A stretch of DNA of 42,374 bases from Thermotogae bacterium (GTDB lineage: Bacteria; Thermotogota; Thermotogae; UBA12178), in contig JAGGZV010000094.1 in NCBI GenBank assembly GCA_021161835.1, positions 1 to 42,374 on the forward strand, in the 5' to 3' direction. Shown here in pieces: positions 944-17,768 of this stretch; positions within the stretch are counted from its first letter, which is position 1, and each line of letters opens with the position of its first letter. The notes beneath the pieces were generated by a model, which did no database searches, had not been told where the DNA came from, and worked only from the letters and a program-made list of their open reading frames with translations. A program made the position numbers and the translations under genes.

Positions 944-1768
944 ATGAAAGCGCTGGTTCTTAGTGGTGGCGGCGCCAGGGGAGCCGCACACATTGGAGTG
1001 ATAAGAGCGCTGGAAGAAAGAGGATTCCGCCCTGATGCCATAGTGGGGGTCAGCATAGGCGCGCTCGTGGGAGCCGGATATGCCGTATTTGGTGAATGGA
1101 AACCTCTGTGGGAAGGAGCAGGAGAATTCTACAAAAAGGCCAACAAATTTTTCCCCTTCAAATCCGTCCCCGGTCTGAGATCGAGCGTGGCGATATTGGC
1201 AGGATGCCTGTACATGAATTTTTTCAAAGCTTTTCTGCCTTCGAAGATCTACTTTTCTATCGTAGAAAGGGCTTTCAGAGATATCAGGTTTGAATCCTTG
1301 AAAATTCCTCTCCATGTGGTTGTGTTCAATATAACAGAGGGAAAAACGGAGGTTTTCAATTCGGGGTCGCTGGTGCAGGCATTGAAGGCTTCCATGAGCA
1401 TACCGGGGATATTCACTCCGGTACGTTGTGGGAAAGGAATGTATGTGGATGGTGGAATAGTAAACAACCTGCCCTGCAATATTGCCAGAGAGATCGGAGC
1501 CGAATATGTGCTGGCGGTGGATGTAAGCGAAAGAGGTACACACCCTAACGTATACTCCTCCAGTGATCTGCTGAAAGCCATGGGATCGATACAGAACAAA
1601 ATCCTTATCGAGGAACGAAGACGGGAAGCCGATCTCTTGATCACCCCACCCGTTTCCAGTGTACACACTCTGGACTTTTCCCGATCTCTGAAACTGATGG
1701 AAGAAGCATATCAATACACGAGCGAACTCCTTAAACGTGTATCCGTCCCATCAGGGGGAGATAAATGA
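944..1768 (+). CDS. Patatin-like phospholipase (RssA/NTE family)
   Basis: A 274-residue predicted lipid acyl hydrolase. It has the glycine-rich oxyanion loop LSGGGARG (residues 6-13), the nucleophile elbow GVSIG (Ser37) and the DGG motif (Asp169), so the Ser-Asp dyad is intact. No signal peptide is seen, so it is probably a cytoplasmic or peripheral membrane enzyme acting on phospholipids or other acyl esters. The ATG at 944 is preferred over 938 because GGGGAG ends immediately before 938, leaving proper spacing only for 944. The next gene overlaps by ATGA and is a degenerate copy of the same fold, suggesting a paired complex. A TATAAT sequence at 921-926 lies very close to the start and is not convincing as a promoter. 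Confidence 0.9.
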   Translation: MKALVLSGGGARGAAHIGVIRALEERGFRPDAIVGVSIGALVGAGYAVFGEWKPLWEGAGEFYKKANKFFPFKSVPGLRSSVAILAGCLYMNFFKAFLPSKIYFSIVERAFRDIRFESLKIPLHVVVFNITEGKTEVFNSGSLVQALKASMSIPGIFTPVRCGKGMYVDGGIVNNLPCNIAREIGAEYVLAVDVSERGTHPNVYSSSDLLKAMGSIQNKILIEERRREADLLITPPVSSVHTLDFSRSLKLMEEAYQYTSELLKRVSVPSGGDK

Positions 1769-2502
1769 TGCTCGTGATAGCCGGAGGATTTGGAGCGCAG
1801 GGATTGAGTGCATGCGCGGCATTGGTACATCTCCCTATAACTCGCGTCAGGCTCGTATTGACTGGTTTGCCTGCATTCTACGCAGTTTCTTCAAAGTGTC
1901 TGGAAGATGAAGAAGCATTTCATAGAACGTTGATCGTTTTGAAGCGTTTCGCTAACTACTTTGAAGCCATTGGCTCTGTAGGTAAAACCCCTTCTGTCCT
2001 CGAAAGGGTGAAATACTGTTACAGATGGAACCGCAGAATTGCACTCTACGATTGGAATGATGTAGAGGATATTCTTCCCCCTTCTGTCGAGATCGAAGGA
2101 ATAGTATGTGAAGTGATGGATATAAAGGAGATGAAGATAAAAACTCTAACTGGCGATGCCAGAACAATGGCCATGGGAGCGCTATCCTTTCCAGGGCTCT
2201 TCCCACCAGCCAGATCGAGGTATGTGAATACAACCTATTTCTCCCAGATTCCCCTATCGACTTTGGAAGATGACGTGGTGGTACTCTGGAACATCATGAG
2301 ACCGAAATTAAAAAGTCCCAGCATGGACATTCTGCTGTTTTCAGCGATACTCTGGAGAGCGGAAGAACTCGCACGCCAGAAATTGAGGAAATTCAGAGTA
2401 CGTATGGTGGATTTACCTTCAGTGACATCCGCAGATATACATGATCCACGCGGTTTACTGGAAAAAGTCAGATTAATACTAAAAAACGATGGAGGCTTTT
2501 AA
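1765..2502 (+). CDS. Degenerate patatin-fold paralogue (probable pseudoenzyme)
   Basis: 245 residues, translationally coupled (ATGA) to the intact patatin. It resembles that protein along its length: the N-terminal glycine loop is AGGFGAQG (residues 6-13), and residues 139-150 read ALSFPGLFPPAR where the active enzyme has SMSIPGIFTPVR. Both catalytic sites are lost. The GVSIG elbow is replaced by VLTGLPA (31-37), with no Ser at the nucleophile position, and YVDGGIVNNLP by YVNTTYFSQIP (153-163), removing the Asp. The frame is open and the hydrophobic core pattern is kept, so this looks like a maintained non-catalytic partner rather than a decaying pseudogene. Its last codons form one arm of the acpP terminator. 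The function is unknown; a regulatory or scaffold subunit for the preceding lipase is an inference. Confidence 0.75.
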   Translation: MMLVIAGGFGAQGLSACAALVHLPITRVRLVLTGLPAFYAVSSKCLEDEEAFHRTLIVLKRFANYFEAIGSVGKTPSVLERVKYCYRWNRRIALYDWNDVEDILPPSVEIEGIVCEVMDIKEMKIKTLTGDARTMAMGALSFPGLFPPARSRYVNTTYFSQIPLSTLEDDVVVLWNIMRPKLKSPSMDILLFSAILWRAEELARQKLRKFRVRMVDLPSVTSADIHDPRGLLEKVRLILKNDGGF

Positions 2503-5975: not shown

Positions 5976-7148
5976 ATGAAGAAGGTCATCATGATCCGTT
6001 ATGGAGAAATAGGACTGAAAGGTCGCAATAGATCAGATTTCGAAAAGAGATTACTTGAAAATATAAAAACCACTTTTGGAAAAGAAGTCGACATTCACAT
6101 TCGACATAAAAGGTTGATACTTCCGGTGGTTGATGAAGAAACGTTGAAACTGTACGAACGTCTACGATTCGTTGCGGGTATCCAAAGCTATAGCCTGGCA
6201 TACATGACGGATCGTTCAAAAGACCAGATATTGAAAGCCATCATCGAACTCGTCGAGAACGAGAAAGACGGTGTGAGTACCTTCAAAGTGGAGACCAGAA
6301 GATCGTACAAGAAGTTTCCATGGAGTTCAATGGAATTCAGCGCCCTCATGGGTGAGGAAATATTAAAACGTTTTCCATATCTGAAGGTGAACCTGAAGGA
6401 ACCGGATCTTCTCATAGGTGTGGAGATACGCGAGGAGGGTGCATACGTATTCACCGAAAAAGCGAAAGGTATGGGTGGGTTGCCTGTTGGAAGCTCTGGA
6501 AAAGGAATGGTGCTACTCTCTGGCGGCATAGATAGTCCTGTGGCTGCGTGGATGATGATGAAACGTGGTGTTAGAATAGAAGCGGTTCACTTTGCCAGCC
6601 CACCGTATACAGGGGAACAGGCGAGAGAGAAGGTCTTTGATATTTGCAGAGTACTTGCGCGGTATTCTAATGGCTTTTTAACCCTCCACATAGTACCATT
6701 CACAAAATTGCAGCTTTCCATACACAGAAGCGTTCCTACGAAATACAGCCTGGTGGCCCAGCGAAGAGCCATGGTGAGGATAGCCGAAAAACTGGCGAGC
6801 CGCAGAAGAGCAGATGTACTGATAACTGGCGAGAATCTGGGGCAGGTGGGTTCACAAACCATAGAAAATATGAAGACCATATCCTCCGCAGCATCCATTA
6901 TGGTGTTGAGACCGCTGGTAGGGTTAGACAAGCAGGAAATCATAGCGTTGGCAAGAACACTGGAAACGTATGAAATATCGATAAGACCCTTTGAAGATTG
7001 TTGTACGATTTTCGTTCCCAAACATCCGGCCACCAGATCCACTCCAGAACTTCTGGAGAATCTTGAGAAGAACATACCAGATTACGAAAAGCTAATAGAG
7101 GAGGCAATAGAGAATGTTGAAACCTTCGATGTTGAAGCAGTTTGGTAA
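5976..7148 (+). CDS. thiI: tRNA 4-thiouridine synthetase ThiI
   Basis: 390 residues. It has an N-terminal ferredoxin-like plus THUMP region for tRNA binding and a PP-loop ATP pyrophosphatase site LLSGGIDSPVAAWMM. The conserved FEDCCTIFVPKHP follows near the C-terminus. There is no rhodanese domain, so this is the short form found in many bacteria and archaea. It adenylates U8 of tRNA for sulfur transfer; the short form may not serve thiamine synthesis. The ATG at 5976 follows a GGGGGGCCAGGAG purine-rich ribosome site. Confidence 0.94.
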   Translation: MKKVIMIRYGEIGLKGRNRSDFEKRLLENIKTTFGKEVDIHIRHKRLILPVVDEETLKLYERLRFVAGIQSYSLAYMTDRSKDQILKAIIELVENEKDGVSTFKVETRRSYKKFPWSSMEFSALMGEEILKRFPYLKVNLKEPDLLIGVEIREEGAYVFTEKAKGMGGLPVGSSGKGMVLLSGGIDSPVAAWMMMKRGVRIEAVHFASPPYTGEQAREKVFDICRVLARYSNGFLTLHIVPFTKLQLSIHRSVPTKYSLVAQRRAMVRIAEKLASRRRADVLITGENLGQVGSQTIENMKTISSAASIMVLRPLVGLDKQEIIALARTLETYEISIRPFEDCCTIFVPKHPATRSTPELLENLEKNIPDYEKLIEEAIENVETFDVEAVW

Positions 7149-7902
7149 TTTTCTGTATTCCCTGTTGATGAGTTTGTGGTTCTATGTAGCTTTCTTCAGC
7201 TATGTAATAATCTACGGCTCGTTCGTGGCATGGAGACAGAAAATACTCTCGAAAACCAGGGGTGAAAAAGCCGCAAGAGAATATCTCATCAACGAGGTTG
7301 CAAAATTCGGACGCAGGGCTTTCTCGTGGTTTGGAATAAAAGTGATTTGTATGGGTGAGGAAAACGTACCCAGAGAAAAGGAGGGTTACGTCATCATCGC
7401 CAACCATCTGAGTACCATGGATATACCACTCATTCTGGGATATGTAAATGGTGGCACGGCCTTCATAGCAAAGGCGGAGTTGAGCAAAGTACCAGGAGTA
7501 TCCCATTACACGAAAAAACTCGGAGGATTGTTCATAAAACGAGGCGATCCCAAGCAAACAGCAGGAGTTTTGAGGGTGATGGCCAGAGCTATAAGAGACG
7601 GGAAAGTATTCACCATATTTCCCGAAGGAACCAGGAGTCGTGATGGAAAAGTTGGACCTTTTCGAAAGGGAAGTCTGGCAATACCTTATAAACTCGGTGT
7701 AAAGGTGCTTCCCGTTTCAATATACGGTACCGGGAGAATAATGAAACCCCGATCACTTCTACTGAATCCAACCAGGGTGGGGATACACATTCACCCCATG
7801 ATCGACCCTGCCGATTTCGGGAGTGAAGAAGAGCTGCGAGAAAAAGTGCGTGAAGTTATAGTAAAGGGATGGGAAAGGTTGAGGAAGGAGGTGGAAAGAT
7901 GA
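7114..7902 (+). CDS. plsC: 1-acyl-sn-glycerol-3-phosphate acyltransferase (PlsC family)
   Basis: 262 residues. A hydrophobic N-terminal segment (about residues 12-38) should anchor it to the inner membrane. The acyltransferase motifs are NHLSTMD (H-x4-D catalytic pair), FIKRGD and FPEGTRSRDG. It transfers an acyl chain to lysophosphatidic acid to make phosphatidic acid. The start at 7114 has AGAGGAGG 9 bases upstream and lies 35 bp inside the end of thiI. The downstream nuclease start overlaps by ATGA, so the three genes are coupled in translation. Confidence 0.93.
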   Translation: MLKPSMLKQFGNFLYSLLMSLWFYVAFFSYVIIYGSFVAWRQKILSKTRGEKAAREYLINEVAKFGRRAFSWFGIKVICMGEENVPREKEGYVIIANHLSTMDIPLILGYVNGGTAFIAKAELSKVPGVSHYTKKLGGLFIKRGDPKQTAGVLRVMARAIRDGKVFTIFPEGTRSRDGKVGPFRKGSLAIPYKLGVKVLPVSIYGTGRIMKPRSLLLNPTRVGIHIHPMIDPADFGSEEELREKVREVIVKGWERLRKEVER

Positions 7903-8432
7903 AGCGTGTAATCGTGGAAGCCCTGGTTCTCGATAGGGTACATAACACACCCGTGGTATTGCTCAGAATAGAAAATACTAACAGGGTCTTACCCATATGG
8001 ATAGGATCCTGTGAAGCATTGGCGCTTTCCATGGCACTGGATGGAGTGGAATTTCCACGTCCTATGACACACGATCTTCTACTCAATGTTCTGGAAGCTC
8101 TGGATGCAAAACTTGAAAAGGTCATAATACACTCCATAAAAGACAACACCTATTACGCTTCCCTGATACTGAAAGATCTTTCGTATGGTGAAGATGAGGA
8201 TGCACCATACATCGAAGTGGATGCTAGACCATCGGATTCCATAGTTCTTGCCACGAAAAAAGGTGTTCCCATATATGTGAGCAATGAACTGGTGCTGGAA
8301 AACTCCATAGAATATACCGCTCAGGATGAAGAGAAAGAGCAATTCAAAGAGTTCGTCGATAAACTGGATATAGATCAATTTCGAAGACTCGTCAAGGACG
8401 AGCAGAGTGAAGATGATGAACGAAGTGGATGA
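7899..8432 (+). CDS. Bifunctional nuclease family protein (DUF151)
   Basis: 177 residues from the ATG at 7899, which has GGAGGTGG four bases before it; a reading from 7869 lacks this support. The N-terminal two thirds match the DUF151 fold (VLPIWIGSCEALAL, DARPSDSIVLA). Members, including a T. maritima protein of known structure, have been described as nucleases; physiological roles are poorly known. The last ~50 residues are charged (UVR-like helical tail EEKEQFKEFVDKL). The start overlaps plsC by ATGA, and its end overlaps the polyprenyl synthase by 26 bp. Confidence 0.9.
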   Translation: MKRVIVEALVLDRVHNTPVVLLRIENTNRVLPIWIGSCEALALSMALDGVEFPRPMTHDLLLNVLEALDAKLEKVIIHSIKDNTYYASLILKDLSYGEDEDAPYIEVDARPSDSIVLATKKGVPIYVSNELVLENSIEYTAQDEEKEQFKEFVDKLDIDQFRRLVKDEQSEDDERSG

Positions 8433-9270
8433 AAAGAAACTCTGGTTCGACAAAAAATTACAAATGTTCCTGGAAACTCCTGAAGACCTTTCATGGGCAC
8501 GTTCCATGGTGATTTACACTCCTTCAATAGGCGGAAAACGTTTCAGACCAGTTCTCATGCTGACGCTGGGGGAAGACCTTGGAGTTGATAAGGAATCGTT
8601 GATATGGCCTGCCATGGCCGTCGAGATTCTTCATGCAGCTTCTCTCATACACGACGATCTGCCGGCTATAGATGATGACGATTACAGAAGAGGAAAACTC
8701 TCCTGCCACAAAGTTTTTGGAGAAGGTAAAGCGATAGTTGTGGGTGATATCCTCTTTTTCAAAGCCTTTGAAGCTCTTGTACCGTTGACCAGGGAATTTC
8801 CCGGTTTGAATACGTTGTTTGTAGAGGCTGCACTCAACCTTGGGTATGGCGAACTAAGCGACATAGATTTTGAAAGCAGGGAAGTTACGTTGGATGAAAT
8901 ACTGAAAATGTATGAAAGGAAGACAGGTGCGCTACTCGGGTTCTGCCTTTCCGCTCCAGGAGAACTTGCAGGCCTGGAACACATCGAAGTAGAAAAGTTG
9001 AAGAAATGTGGACAGGAGTTGGGAATAGCATACCAGATCTACGATGATGTTAAAGATGTGGTGGGCAGCTTCGAAGAGCTGGGAAAGACACCCGGTAAAG
9101 ACGAAAAACAGGGTAAAAAGACTATTCCTTCCATTATAGGTATCGATGAAGCCATGAAAATGGGCGATGAAATATTTGAGAGGGTGATGAAAACACTTGG
9201 GGAGGAGTTTTCGGCATGGAAAACGGTGAATTTCCTGAGATCGATGAGACCAACACTGAAGAAGAAATAG
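8407..9270 (+). CDS. ispA: Polyprenyl (farnesyl/geranylgeranyl) diphosphate synthase
   Basis: About 287 residues. The first aspartate-rich motif is HDDLPAIDDDDYRRG, and the second is YDDVKDVVG (DDxxD type, substrate Mg2+ sites). GKRFRPVL near the N-terminus binds IPP. It condenses isopentenyl diphosphate with allylic diphosphates; the product chain length cannot be settled by eye, though the size and the two residues between the first Asp clusters fit the bacterial FPP/GGPP type. The start is ambiguous among GTG 8407 and ATG 8413 or 8416, all inside the preceding gene. Its 3' end overlaps the next gene by 55 bp. Confidence 0.9.
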   Translation: MKMMNEVDEKKLWFDKKLQMFLETPEDLSWARSMVIYTPSIGGKRFRPVLMLTLGEDLGVDKESLIWPAMAVEILHAASLIHDDLPAIDDDDYRRGKLSCHKVFGEGKAIVVGDILFFKAFEALVPLTREFPGLNTLFVEAALNLGYGELSDIDFESREVTLDEILKMYERKTGALLGFCLSAPGELAGLEHIEVEKLKKCGQELGIAYQIYDDVKDVVGSFEELGKTPGKDEKQGKKTIPSIIGIDEAMKMGDEIFERVMKTLGEEFSAWKTVNFLRSMRPTLKKK

Positions 9271-11747
9271 TGGAAACCTCTGCACGGAAAAGTCGGAACA
9301 TCTTCAACACTCTTCTTAAACGACTTGAACGCTGGAAACCAACGGCCAAACTTCTGGACTTTGTGAAGACCCACCGCCTCATATCGGTGTTCGGTGGGGT
9401 GGGTATAATTATGCTTGTAATAGCATTGATGGTGTTCACGAAGAGTGCCCCACCATCGGTGGGAGCGAGCGAAGAAGAAGGAGGCTATGTCCAGTACAAT
9501 CTCGTGGAAATCGATGTGCCACCTGGTGCCTATCCATCGGAAAAGTTCTTCAAAGTGGAAGAAATATCACCAGATTCACCTGAATACACCGATTACAAAA
9601 CATTGGCCAACTTCGAAGGTCCCATATACCGAGTGTATCCCTCAGACGGTAAAGACGAACTTGCACTGAAACCCCTTAAAATCAGATATCGACTGGACCC
9701 GCAGTTGTATCCCGGTGATGAATTTGTACACTTTACGTTGCGCTACGTTACGTTAAACGAACCTCATGTGGTTGGCACACTATATGGTTGCGAAGTGGTC
9801 GAAAAGGGTGGAGTCAAATACCTGGAAGGAACTGTATTTCATGCTTCGTTCGTGGTGGGTATCTCTTTCAAAAAACCAGAGTACGCAGATTTCGGTATAA
9901 GACTCCTGGTGGACAAACCACCTACCTTAAAGCCCTCGATCCTGATTGTTCCAGGTATTGACCAGAATTTCGTGGGAACCATTCCCAACACCTTCACGCC
10001 TGAAAATCCTGGTGGTAGCAACATATGGGAAATGCTCTTCCCTGACAGACCCATCTGGGTCTACAAGTATCCTCTACTGTCAACCAAACCACGTAATTAC
10101 ATGAGAGCTTTTGAAAGACATCAGCAGACTTCACCTGTACCAACCTACATAGATTTTGAAGCGAGAAGACTGGCTGAAGAATTGGAACGTTTGAATAGGT
10201 ACACCTTCGATATAATAGCTCATGACATAGGTGGGTTGATAGTACGATACGCTCTGGAGAGTAATCCCAGAATCAAAAATGTCAGAAGTGTTGTACTGGT
10301 AAGTACTCCCAACACAGGCACCAACGTAACGAACCCTCTGTATTTTTCCACTCTATACGGTAAGCCTCCCGATATCATAGCTGAAGCAATGGGAGGTAGC
10401 AGGGTGGCAATATCTTTCATAACCACCCACATACTCTCCACGTTCGAAAAGGTGAACACCTACTGGCGAGAAATCCTGCCCACCGGTTTGAGCATACGAA
10501 AGCTGGAATCGTTCAACGTTCGAAAAGATATAAGATACCTGTGTATAGCCGGATCAACGCCACCCATAGAAACGGGTATAAAAGGGACGGAACTCGAGAA
10601 ATTTTATCCCGAATTGACAGATGGAGAAGGAGATGGTTTCGTTAGCGTAAAAAGCGCTCTAATGGAAGAAAGCAAGAATCTGATGTTTCCCTACTCCTTT
10701 ACAGAACTCTATCTCAAAGGAGATGTGCTGAACGCTATAAAGGATTTTCTCAACGAGGGTATAAAACTTCCAAAGGTACCGGAATTCAAAACCGATGAAT
10801 TTGTGGAAACAAAAGTGGTGAAGAGAAAAGAAGAAAAACCAAGGATAGAGCCCTGGAAAAAGTATCTTTTACCTGAACTGAAAAAAGGAAGAATTCTGAA
10901 GTCGACCTGGAAATTGAGCACACCTGATCTGGGTGAACCTTACGGTTCCGCGGATGGATGGTATTATCTTGTGGTACACAATGGGGTATACGTGTGTAAT
11001 CCTCCCAAGAAGTGGACGAGGATCCTAGATGGAGAGGTGGTAGCTCACAACTTCTACAATGATAGCATGATAGTAGTAACGAATGAAAGGGTAGAAGTGC
11101 TGAGAAGAGGGAAGATAGTTGATTCATGGCCTTTGCCCACCTTCACCGGTAATGTTCTGGATGCATGGTACAGAACAGATGGCAGAGGTATCATGCTCGT
11201 TGATGTAGAGGGCAGATTATTACTCTACTTTGTGAAACGCAATGAAATAAGATATTCCTCCACTGTGACATCCACCTATGCTCGCTTGCGCGGAGAAAGA
11301 GCGGAAGTGTTCTTGATAACGGAAAGCTCTGTATCGAGCTACGATATTGAAACTTTCAAGAAGAAGTGGACATTGAACACAAGCATGATGATGAAGAGAT
11401 TGAAGATGAAAGAGGGAGCTCTCATAAGACCCATAGATGTTGTACGCGTTGGTAGGGATCTTTTCGTGCTGTTCAAAGATTATATAATCGGCGTGTTCGA
11501 TCTGTACTCTTATTCTGCACAGGTAGTGGCGTACGGCGAGCTGGGATCGAAGAGACTCATGAGATTCGGTGATTTTGTCCTTGCAGTTGGCGAGAATACT
11601 CTTGGGGGGTTCGACTATATCAATAAAAAGAGGATAGAATTTTATCAGATAATCAAAAAAGGGAAAATAGGGATGGGCTATAAAGAGATGTTGATATCCT
11701 ACGAAGAAGGTGGAAGATTTTGGTTGGAAGGGTTTTCAATACGTTGA
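9216..11747 (+). CDS. Membrane-anchored alpha/beta-hydrolase-fold protein with C-terminal beta-propeller; nucleophile position is Asp
   Basis: 843 residues. The cytoplasmic N-terminus is short and acidic, with one membrane segment at about 56-74, so most of the protein should face the periplasm. Residues 90-225 look like a ZU5-like beta domain. Residues 238-520 resemble a PGAP1/lipase-type alpha/beta hydrolase: SILIVPGIDQNF strand, nucleophile elbow IIAHDIGGLIVRY (Asp337 where lipases have Ser), VSTPNTGTN, and the acid in TDGEGDGFVSV. The C-terminal His that usually follows is not apparent (SFTELYLKGDV at 494-504). Residues ~560-843 have repeated strands ending in WYYLVVHNGVYV-like units, suggesting a beta-propeller. 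The ATG at 9216 has GGGGAGGAG upstream. It could be a pseudoenzyme or an Asp-nucleophile hydrolase. The downstream TPR gene overlaps it. Confidence 0.75.
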   Translation: MENGEFPEIDETNTEEEIVETSARKSRNIFNTLLKRLERWKPTAKLLDFVKTHRLISVFGGVGIIMLVIALMVFTKSAPPSVGASEEEGGYVQYNLVEIDVPPGAYPSEKFFKVEEISPDSPEYTDYKTLANFEGPIYRVYPSDGKDELALKPLKIRYRLDPQLYPGDEFVHFTLRYVTLNEPHVVGTLYGCEVVEKGGVKYLEGTVFHASFVVGISFKKPEYADFGIRLLVDKPPTLKPSILIVPGIDQNFVGTIPNTFTPENPGGSNIWEMLFPDRPIWVYKYPLLSTKPRNYMRAFERHQQTSPVPTYIDFEARRLAEELERLNRYTFDIIAHDIGGLIVRYALESNPRIKNVRSVVLVSTPNTGTNVTNPLYFSTLYGKPPDIIAEAMGGSRVAISFITTHILSTFEKVNTYWREILPTGLSIRKLESFNVRKDIRYLCIAGSTPPIETGIKGTELEKFYPELTDGEGDGFVSVKSALMEESKNLMFPYSFTELYLKGDVLNAIKDFLNEGIKLPKVPEFKTDEFVETKVVKRKEEKPRIEPWKKYLLPELKKGRILKSTWKLSTPDLGEPYGSADGWYYLVVHNGVYVCNPPKKWTRILDGEVVAHNFYNDSMIVVTNERVEVLRRGKIVDSWPLPTFTGNVLDAWYRTDGRGIMLVDVEGRLLLYFVKRNEIRYSSTVTSTYARLRGERAEVFLITESSVSSYDIETFKKKWTLNTSMMMKRLKMKEGALIRPIDVVRVGRDLFVLFKDYIIGVFDLYSYSAQVVAYGELGSKRLMRFGDFVLAVGENTLGGFDYINKKRIEFYQIIKKGKIGMGYKEMLISYEEGGRFWLEGFSIR

Positions 11748-17085: not shown

Positions 17086-17768
17086 AGGTAGTTTTTTTGG
17101 GACATGCCACTTTCATCTTGGAAACGGGTACCTATCGTTTGATAATCGATCCGTTCGTTAGAGAAAACCCCGCATGTCCCCTGAAATTTGAAGAAGTACC
17201 CAAGTTGACACACGTGCTCATCACCCATGGTCACGGAGATCATCTGGGTGATGCGGTGGAATTTGCAAAGAGAGATGGGGCCATGGTGATATGTAACTTC
17301 GAAATTTCCGTGTACCTTACAAGAAAAGGTGTTGAGAAAGTTCATGCCATGCACATAGGTGGGAGGTACAAATTCGATTTCGGTAACGTGAAGATGGTCC
17401 CCGCATTACATGGTTCGGGAATCCTGGAAAACGGTGAAATCCTGTACGGAGGGAATCCATGCGGTTTCCTCATTGAGGTCGATGGTAAGAAAGTGTACCA
17501 TGCAGGTGACACAGGATTAAGCATCGAAATGAAGTTGCTAGAAGACGAAGAGGTGGATCTTGCGCTCCTGCCCATTGGAGGAAACTATGTGATGGATGTG
17601 AACGATGCGGTGAAGGCGGTAGAATTAATCAAACCCAAGCTGGTGGTTCCCATGCATTACGGTACATGGCCTGTGATAAGCGCAAGGGCAGATAAATTCA
17701 AAGATTATGTCGAAGAGAAGGGTTTTCATTGCTCCATAATAAAACCAGGAGATTCCATAGAATTATGA
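17079..17768 (+). CDS. UPF0173 metal-dependent hydrolase
   Basis: 229 residues of metallo-beta-lactamase fold. Metal ligands are in [11 protein letters not shown] (HxHxDH), later His in VPALHG, Asp in YHAGDTGLS and the final His in [10 protein letters not shown]. It matches the UPF0173/YtkL-type group, whose natural substrate is not established. The start has GAAGGAGGTG upstream and lies within the end of the kinase gene. It converges on ribF with only two bases between stop codons. Confidence 0.92.

Follow-up and report, generated by a model that had tools for sequence, protein, structure and literature searches.

The overlapping gene pair

The window, which is the whole stretch of DNA analysed here (42,374 nucleotides of a Thermotogae bacterium contig), carries two overlapping genes close to its left end, both on the + strand. 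The upstream gene (944..1768, alternative start 938) encodes an active patatin-like phospholipase that matches PF01734 at E = 4.5e-34 and scores 370 bits against the profile of type-1 active patatins, type 1 being one of two pair families described below. Its frame is intact and its GGGARG, GVSIG and DGG motifs are all present; the codons of the nucleophile Ser37 (GVSIG; 1052..1054) and the catalytic Asp169 (DGG; 1448..1450) were read in the sequence, and both residues are invariant in the alignment of active patatins. The downstream gene (ORF2; 1765..2502) encodes a protein of 245 amino acids, identified as a type-1 pseudopatatin from its fold model, its fold matches in the PDB and its homologues across the phylum. 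Its ATG at 1765 overlaps the stop of the first gene as ATGA. A second ATG at 1768, behind GGGGGAG, is an equally good start, in which case the overlap would be TGATG. A crude hydropathy check gave no transmembrane segment in either protein. The initial annotation had described a patatin and an intact 245-codon frame overlapping by ATGA, with motifs of the second protein corresponding to those of the first; both ORFs and the motif correspondences are present in the sequence.

ORF2 had no match in Pfam or NCBIfam, and PF01734 gave no hit to it at E ≤ 10. BLASTP of the window patatin against ORF2 gave only a single segment of 51 residues at E = 0.001, so the patatin likeness as read by eye lies at the limit of sequence comparison.

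Predicted fold and the lost dyad

Comparison of family profiles settled the homology of the active and dead copies. The profile-profile comparison that the initial annotation had proposed, type-1 pseudopatatins against type-1 active patatins, gave E = 1.1e-12, and the corresponding value for type 2 was 8.6e-20; the two pseudopatatin families matched each other at E = 9.7e-21. The patatin fold of ORF2 is predicted with high confidence. AlphaFold2 models were built from each pseudopatatin family's own alignment, and the window pseudopatatin reached a pLDDT of 91.1 and a pTM of 0.90 (89.7 and 0.88 for one type-2 pseudopatatin). When the window model was compared with the PDB, all 14 matches at E ≤ 0.001 were patatins (TM 0.53-0.62), including CapV, CapE, PlpD and patatin-17 together with two entries titled as lipase/ligand complexes. 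The type-2 model likewise matched only patatins at E ≤ 0.001, with VipD and iPLA2-beta added. A model lacking the patatin fold had been named in advance as evidence against the reading, and the predicted structure is instead that of a patatin. A sequence search of the PDB returned PlpD alone and weakly (E = 0.0017), and the PF01734 model was matched by 0 of 29 type-1 pseudopatatins compared to 16 of 44 type-2 pseudopatatins. Because Pfam recognises none of the type-1 proteins, they are probably annotated as hypothetical.

In the hhalign alignment, Gly34 of ORF2 (VLTGLPA; 1864..1866, + strand) falls on Ser37 of its neighbour, and Asn155 (2227..2229, + strand), which lies within YVNTTYFSQIP, falls on Asp169. 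The register of Gly34 on Ser37 is supported by the type-2 pseudopatatins of family f7, which align in the same way (T-S-[S/G]-L-G-S-L-[RK]-G, compared to G-S-S-V-G-A-L-V-G in their active partners). The more obvious alternative of aligning Gly34 with the first Gly of GxSxG was rejected: the f7 sequences favour Ser37, as do three of the four profile comparisons, the fourth showing a local shift of register.

Loss of the dyad is a property of the families and not only of the window protein. The nucleophile position is Gly in all 29 type-1 pseudopatatins and in 54 of 61 type-2 pseudopatatins; the other seven type-2 proteins have Ser, all belong to one family, and one close sister there has Gly. 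At the position of the catalytic Asp, type-1 proteins have N, S, T or A (29/29) and never Asp, and 60 of 61 type-2 proteins have S, P, T, N or A, so that Asp is missing in 89 of 90. The sole Asp is in the type-2 copy of the window genome (locus L081), which has Gly at the nucleophile position. Both dyad residues occur together in none of the 90 proteins. The claim that ORF2 has lost Ser and Asp thus holds for the window protein and for every type-1 relative, and the check for conserved loss that had been suggested with it turned up exceptions in type 2 only (seven Ser, one Asp), never both residues at once.

The pseudopatatins retain the order of glycine loop, elbow, PGxFxP loop and a remnant of the Asp loop, and the GGGx[RK]G loop is gone. 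Their most conserved columns lie in the vestiges of the former active site (G7, G8, G10, G34, G37, P143-P148, T156 and P163). The old site itself is replaced by an NTTY-x-SQIP motif and a nearly invariant R198, conserved in most type-1 pseudopatatins, and these could signal a different function.

Two pair families across the Thermotogota

An initial search of 61 related genomes found a homologue of ORF2 in 23, nearly always directly 3' of a patatin. The census was extended over 103 Thermotogota genomes with profiles of the pseudopatatins and then of their active partners. Two paralogous families of patatin/pseudopatatin pairs emerged, type 1 and type 2; one or both are present in 78 of the 103 genomes, and each is present in most families of the phylum. 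The window pair is of type 1. The window genome also carries a type-2 pair on contig 53 (approximately 64145-65640), with genes at 1146-1976 and 1976-2641 of locus L081. Orthologues that were frameshifted or absent in relatives would have spoken against the initial annotation; the search that it had recommended found intact, co-located orthologues in many of them.

In a tree of 76 pseudopatatins, type 1 separates from type 2, and loci L020-L023 were placed in type 2 by this tree. In a joint tree with the active partners, actives and dead copies fall into separate groups for each type (A1, A2, P1 and P2), and these groups branch in parallel, with support of 66 for the type-2 pseudopatatin group and with long branches that leave the deep joins unsure. 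The dead copies of both types group together in this tree, and the actives do not clearly do so. No genome has more than one pair of each type, and both types are vertically inherited.

Active and dead copies are retained together. For type 1, both genes were found in 31 of the 103 genomes, the pseudopatatin only in 2 and the active patatin only in none; for type 2 the corresponding numbers were 60 (one of them, G073, with only a fragment of the pseudopatatin), 2 and 0. A cognate active patatin without a pseudopatatin was therefore seen in 0 of 91 cases. Fisher's exact p values for co-occurrence were about 1e-24 (type 1) and 1e-26 (type 2), ignoring the shared ancestry of the genomes. The four genomes with a pseudopatatin only are G095 (a draft), G029 (88% complete), G038 (87% complete) and G055, in which both type-1 genes (locus L005) have frameshifts or stops and the pairs of its congeners are intact, indicating joint decay. 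Two genomes that had appeared to have an active patatin only (G004 and G016, about 240 bits) were rejected as such, for a very divergent pseudopatatin adjoins the patatin in each.

When the two genes are adjacent, the active gene always precedes the pseudopatatin on the same strand. They overlap in 68 of 78 adjacent pairs, including most type-2 pairs, and by exactly four bases in 19 of 23 adjacent type-1 pairs, lengths that depend on the choice of the longest ORF. Linkage has been lost for type 1 in genera g23, g37 and g38 of family f11 (5 of 6 genomes), with both genes retained, and for type 2 in family f4 (G011, G032, G026 and G005). In these f11 and f4 genomes both unlinked genes persist in nearly all cases, and this is the best argument that the active and the dead copy need each other rather than merely share an operon. 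In G046 (loci L009 and L030) and its f11 relatives the type-1 pseudopatatin lies away from its patatin, which sits elsewhere in the genome; the gene upstream of the unlinked pseudopatatin in G046 is presumably xseA. The active and the dead partners give trees that run in parallel (r = 0.93 and 0.88). Co-occurrence and parallel trees would also be expected from a vertically inherited operon.

Purifying selection on the dead copies

We estimated dN/dS by the method of Nei and Gojobori in 50 pairwise comparisons between close relatives with usable dS, a calculation that had been suggested for ORF2. The values for pseudopatatins were 0.07-0.24, compared to 0.05-0.43 for their active partners in close relatives, so that purifying selection on the dead copies is about as strong as on their partners. 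These low values in close relatives indicate that the pseudopatatins are maintained proteins and not relics. The rate of evolution of the pseudopatatins is about 1.65 times that of the active patatins paired with them. The window protein is itself one with no close relative, and purifying selection on it is inferred from the other members of the family.

Neighbouring genes

The neighbourhoods of type-1 pairs vary among families, and since the surrounding genes change, the conserved unit is the pair itself. In the window, a caspase-like gene lies upstream, and acpP and argS lie downstream. The caspase-like peptidase (3-803, - strand; PF00656, E = 2.9e-18) has a hydrophobic N-terminus, is divergent from the patatin gene and is cut by the edge of the window. 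A few genes downstream of the pair are genes for a PlsC-type acyltransferase (7114-7899, + strand; PF01553) and, near it, a polyprenyl synthetase (8407-9267), and the only Pfam match of an ORF of 843 amino acids (9216-11744, + strand), DUF7379, is below threshold. No cGAS/DncV-like nucleotidyltransferase, which would accompany a CBASS effector of the CapV/CapE kind, was present among the neighbours, annotated as far as window position 17,765, and the conserved, phylum-wide distribution of the pairs argues against a mobile defence system.

Type-2 pairs in families f7, f10 and f11 have neighbours in common. Of 20 type-2 loci sampled, 12 have a gene for an LptA-like protein (PF03968) 3' of the pair, and 9 of these 12 encode an SLH/coiled-coil envelope protein 5' of the pair, often with a PEGA protein beyond it; the SLH match is above threshold only in the Thermotoga-type copy. 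This context, which is that of type 2, suggests a locus for envelope (toga/outer-membrane) lipids.

Searches beyond the phylum

The 20 best profile hits inspected from 287 genomes of other phyla included no pseudopatatin; each of the 20 has a far higher score as an active patatin, and GxSxG or a near form of it is present in 19. When GTDB contigs were scanned with type-1 motifs, two loci came back, both from Thermotogota and both with the pair; this is weak negative evidence, as the scan missed most of the relatives known from the other search. The initial annotation had considered the pair undescribed. In agreement with this, the literature searched, with many subscription papers outside its scope, yielded no account of a patatin partnered by a dead patatin, whether in Thermotogota or in other organisms, and patatin is not mentioned in the paper on toga genes.

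Discussion

We think it likely that ORF2 is a pseudoenzyme that lost its catalytic dyad long ago and has been retained as a non-catalytic partner dedicated to the patatin of the gene upstream. This reading draws on results obtained computationally: the predicted fold, the conserved loss of the dyad, purifying selection in close relatives, co-retention across the phylum and the existence of two pair families. The suggestion of the initial annotation that the dead copy would be a regulatory or scaffold subunit of the adjacent phospholipase is the form of partnership we favour by analogy. It is common for patatins to depend on dimerisation or on a second protein, and this is thought to rigidify the mobile segment bearing the catalytic Asp, and PNPLA2 (ATGL) is co-activated by ABHD5, which itself has no catalytic activity (PMC12871566); it is on these precedents that a role as co-activator or scaffold is based. 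The overlapping genes would provide for coupled, near-equal synthesis of the active and the dead patatin. The two proteins may assemble into a hetero-oligomer, with the dead subunit in place of the second protomer of a patatin dimer; there it could steady the flexible Asp loop of its active counterpart, present lipid or membrane to that counterpart, or both. Such a complex would reach its phospholipids from the cytoplasm, and its role would probably lie in the lipid metabolism of the envelope (toga/outer membrane).

The main rival to a co-activating partner is an inhibitor or guard, one that would restrain a potentially membrane-damaging phospholipase until a signal arrives, because the active gene is never found alone: no genome has the active patatin only, compared to four with a pseudopatatin and no detected intact active gene. 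This asymmetry fits inhibition, and inhibition of a patatin by a partner has a precedent in ExoU, which is held inactive by SpcU (PMC12871566). However, decay of the genes, incompleteness or draft status applies to each of the four pseudopatatin-only genomes, several lineages have lost the linkage of the two genes, and the pairs are vertically inherited, phylum-wide and limited to one per type per genome, in which most toxin-inhibitor pairs differ. On balance we regard an inhibitor as unlikely. A separate lipid-binding or lipid-sensing protein, acting in the same pathway and forming no complex with the patatin, would account for the concentration of the best-conserved columns in the old active site, as expected if the pocket still holds a ligand, and for the retention of both genes even when they are unlinked; the overlap in fixed order in 68 of 78 adjacent pairs and the absence of active-only genomes fit an obligate physical partner better, and we give the separate binder little weight.

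That the pseudopatatin is an enzyme with a rebuilt site, catalysing another reaction by way of, for instance, a Ser, Thr or Cys close to the old one, seems improbable. The NTTY-x-SQIP motif and the invariant residues of most type-1 proteins, and the Ser at or near the elbow of some type-2 proteins, might be taken to favour it, yet in neither type are a nucleophile and a base conserved across the members, the elbow residue switches between Ser and Gly inside a single genus (L089 compared to L090), and Asp is missing nearly throughout. Very little probability attaches to a decaying duplicate (an incipient pseudogene) or a chance open frame. The faster evolution of the pseudopatatins and the frameshifts in both genes of G055 are what decay would produce, but frames are intact across most families of the phylum, the fold is well predicted and dN/dS is far below 1; a chance ORF or pseudogene is contradicted by the data and is ruled out by the homologues and by dN/dS.

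Returning to the dedicated partner, a broader proposal is that Thermotogota have two ancient hetero-oligomeric patatin phospholipases, each with one active and one dead subunit, and that at least the type-2 complex builds or maintains the lipid layer of the toga/outer membrane together with the LptA-like and SLH coiled-coil proteins. We put this forward tentatively, as a possibility that falls somewhat short of an even chance. Thermotogota have an unusual outer sheath, little is known of its lipid biology, and the pairs are common across the phylum; given the co-retention, two small proteins would suffice for a direct test of the partner hypothesis. Patatins occur in all domains of life, and a dead-patatin partner, if confirmed, would be a simple and ancient case of how the control of patatins by partners evolves.

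The pseudopatatins share their predicted fold, profile similarity and motif order with the PF01734 patatins PlpD, patatin-17, CapV/CapE, VipD and iPLA2-beta, and differ from the patatins of that family in having neither the Ser and Asp dyad nor the GGGx[RK]G loop, type 1 falling outside the Pfam model altogether. Full activity of the patatin domain of PNPLA9 (iPLA2-beta) seems to depend on a second such domain (PMC12871566), and a second patatin domain is also the partner proposed for the Thermotogota pairs. In the PNPLA9 homodimer both protomers are active and come from one gene, whereas here the second copy would be the product of a separate, dead gene. The PNPLA2/ABHD5 system resembles our proposal in that a patatin lipase is activated by a non-catalytic protein. 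ABHD5 has a hydrolase fold that differs from the fold of its lipase, whereas the dead partner here is predicted to be itself a patatin, encoded by an overlapping gene, in bacteria. A catalytically dead paralogue is retained as a subunit of an active enzyme in ClpP/ClpR and in ADAT2/ADAT3, and to our knowledge no pseudoenzyme partner pair of this kind is known in the patatin family.
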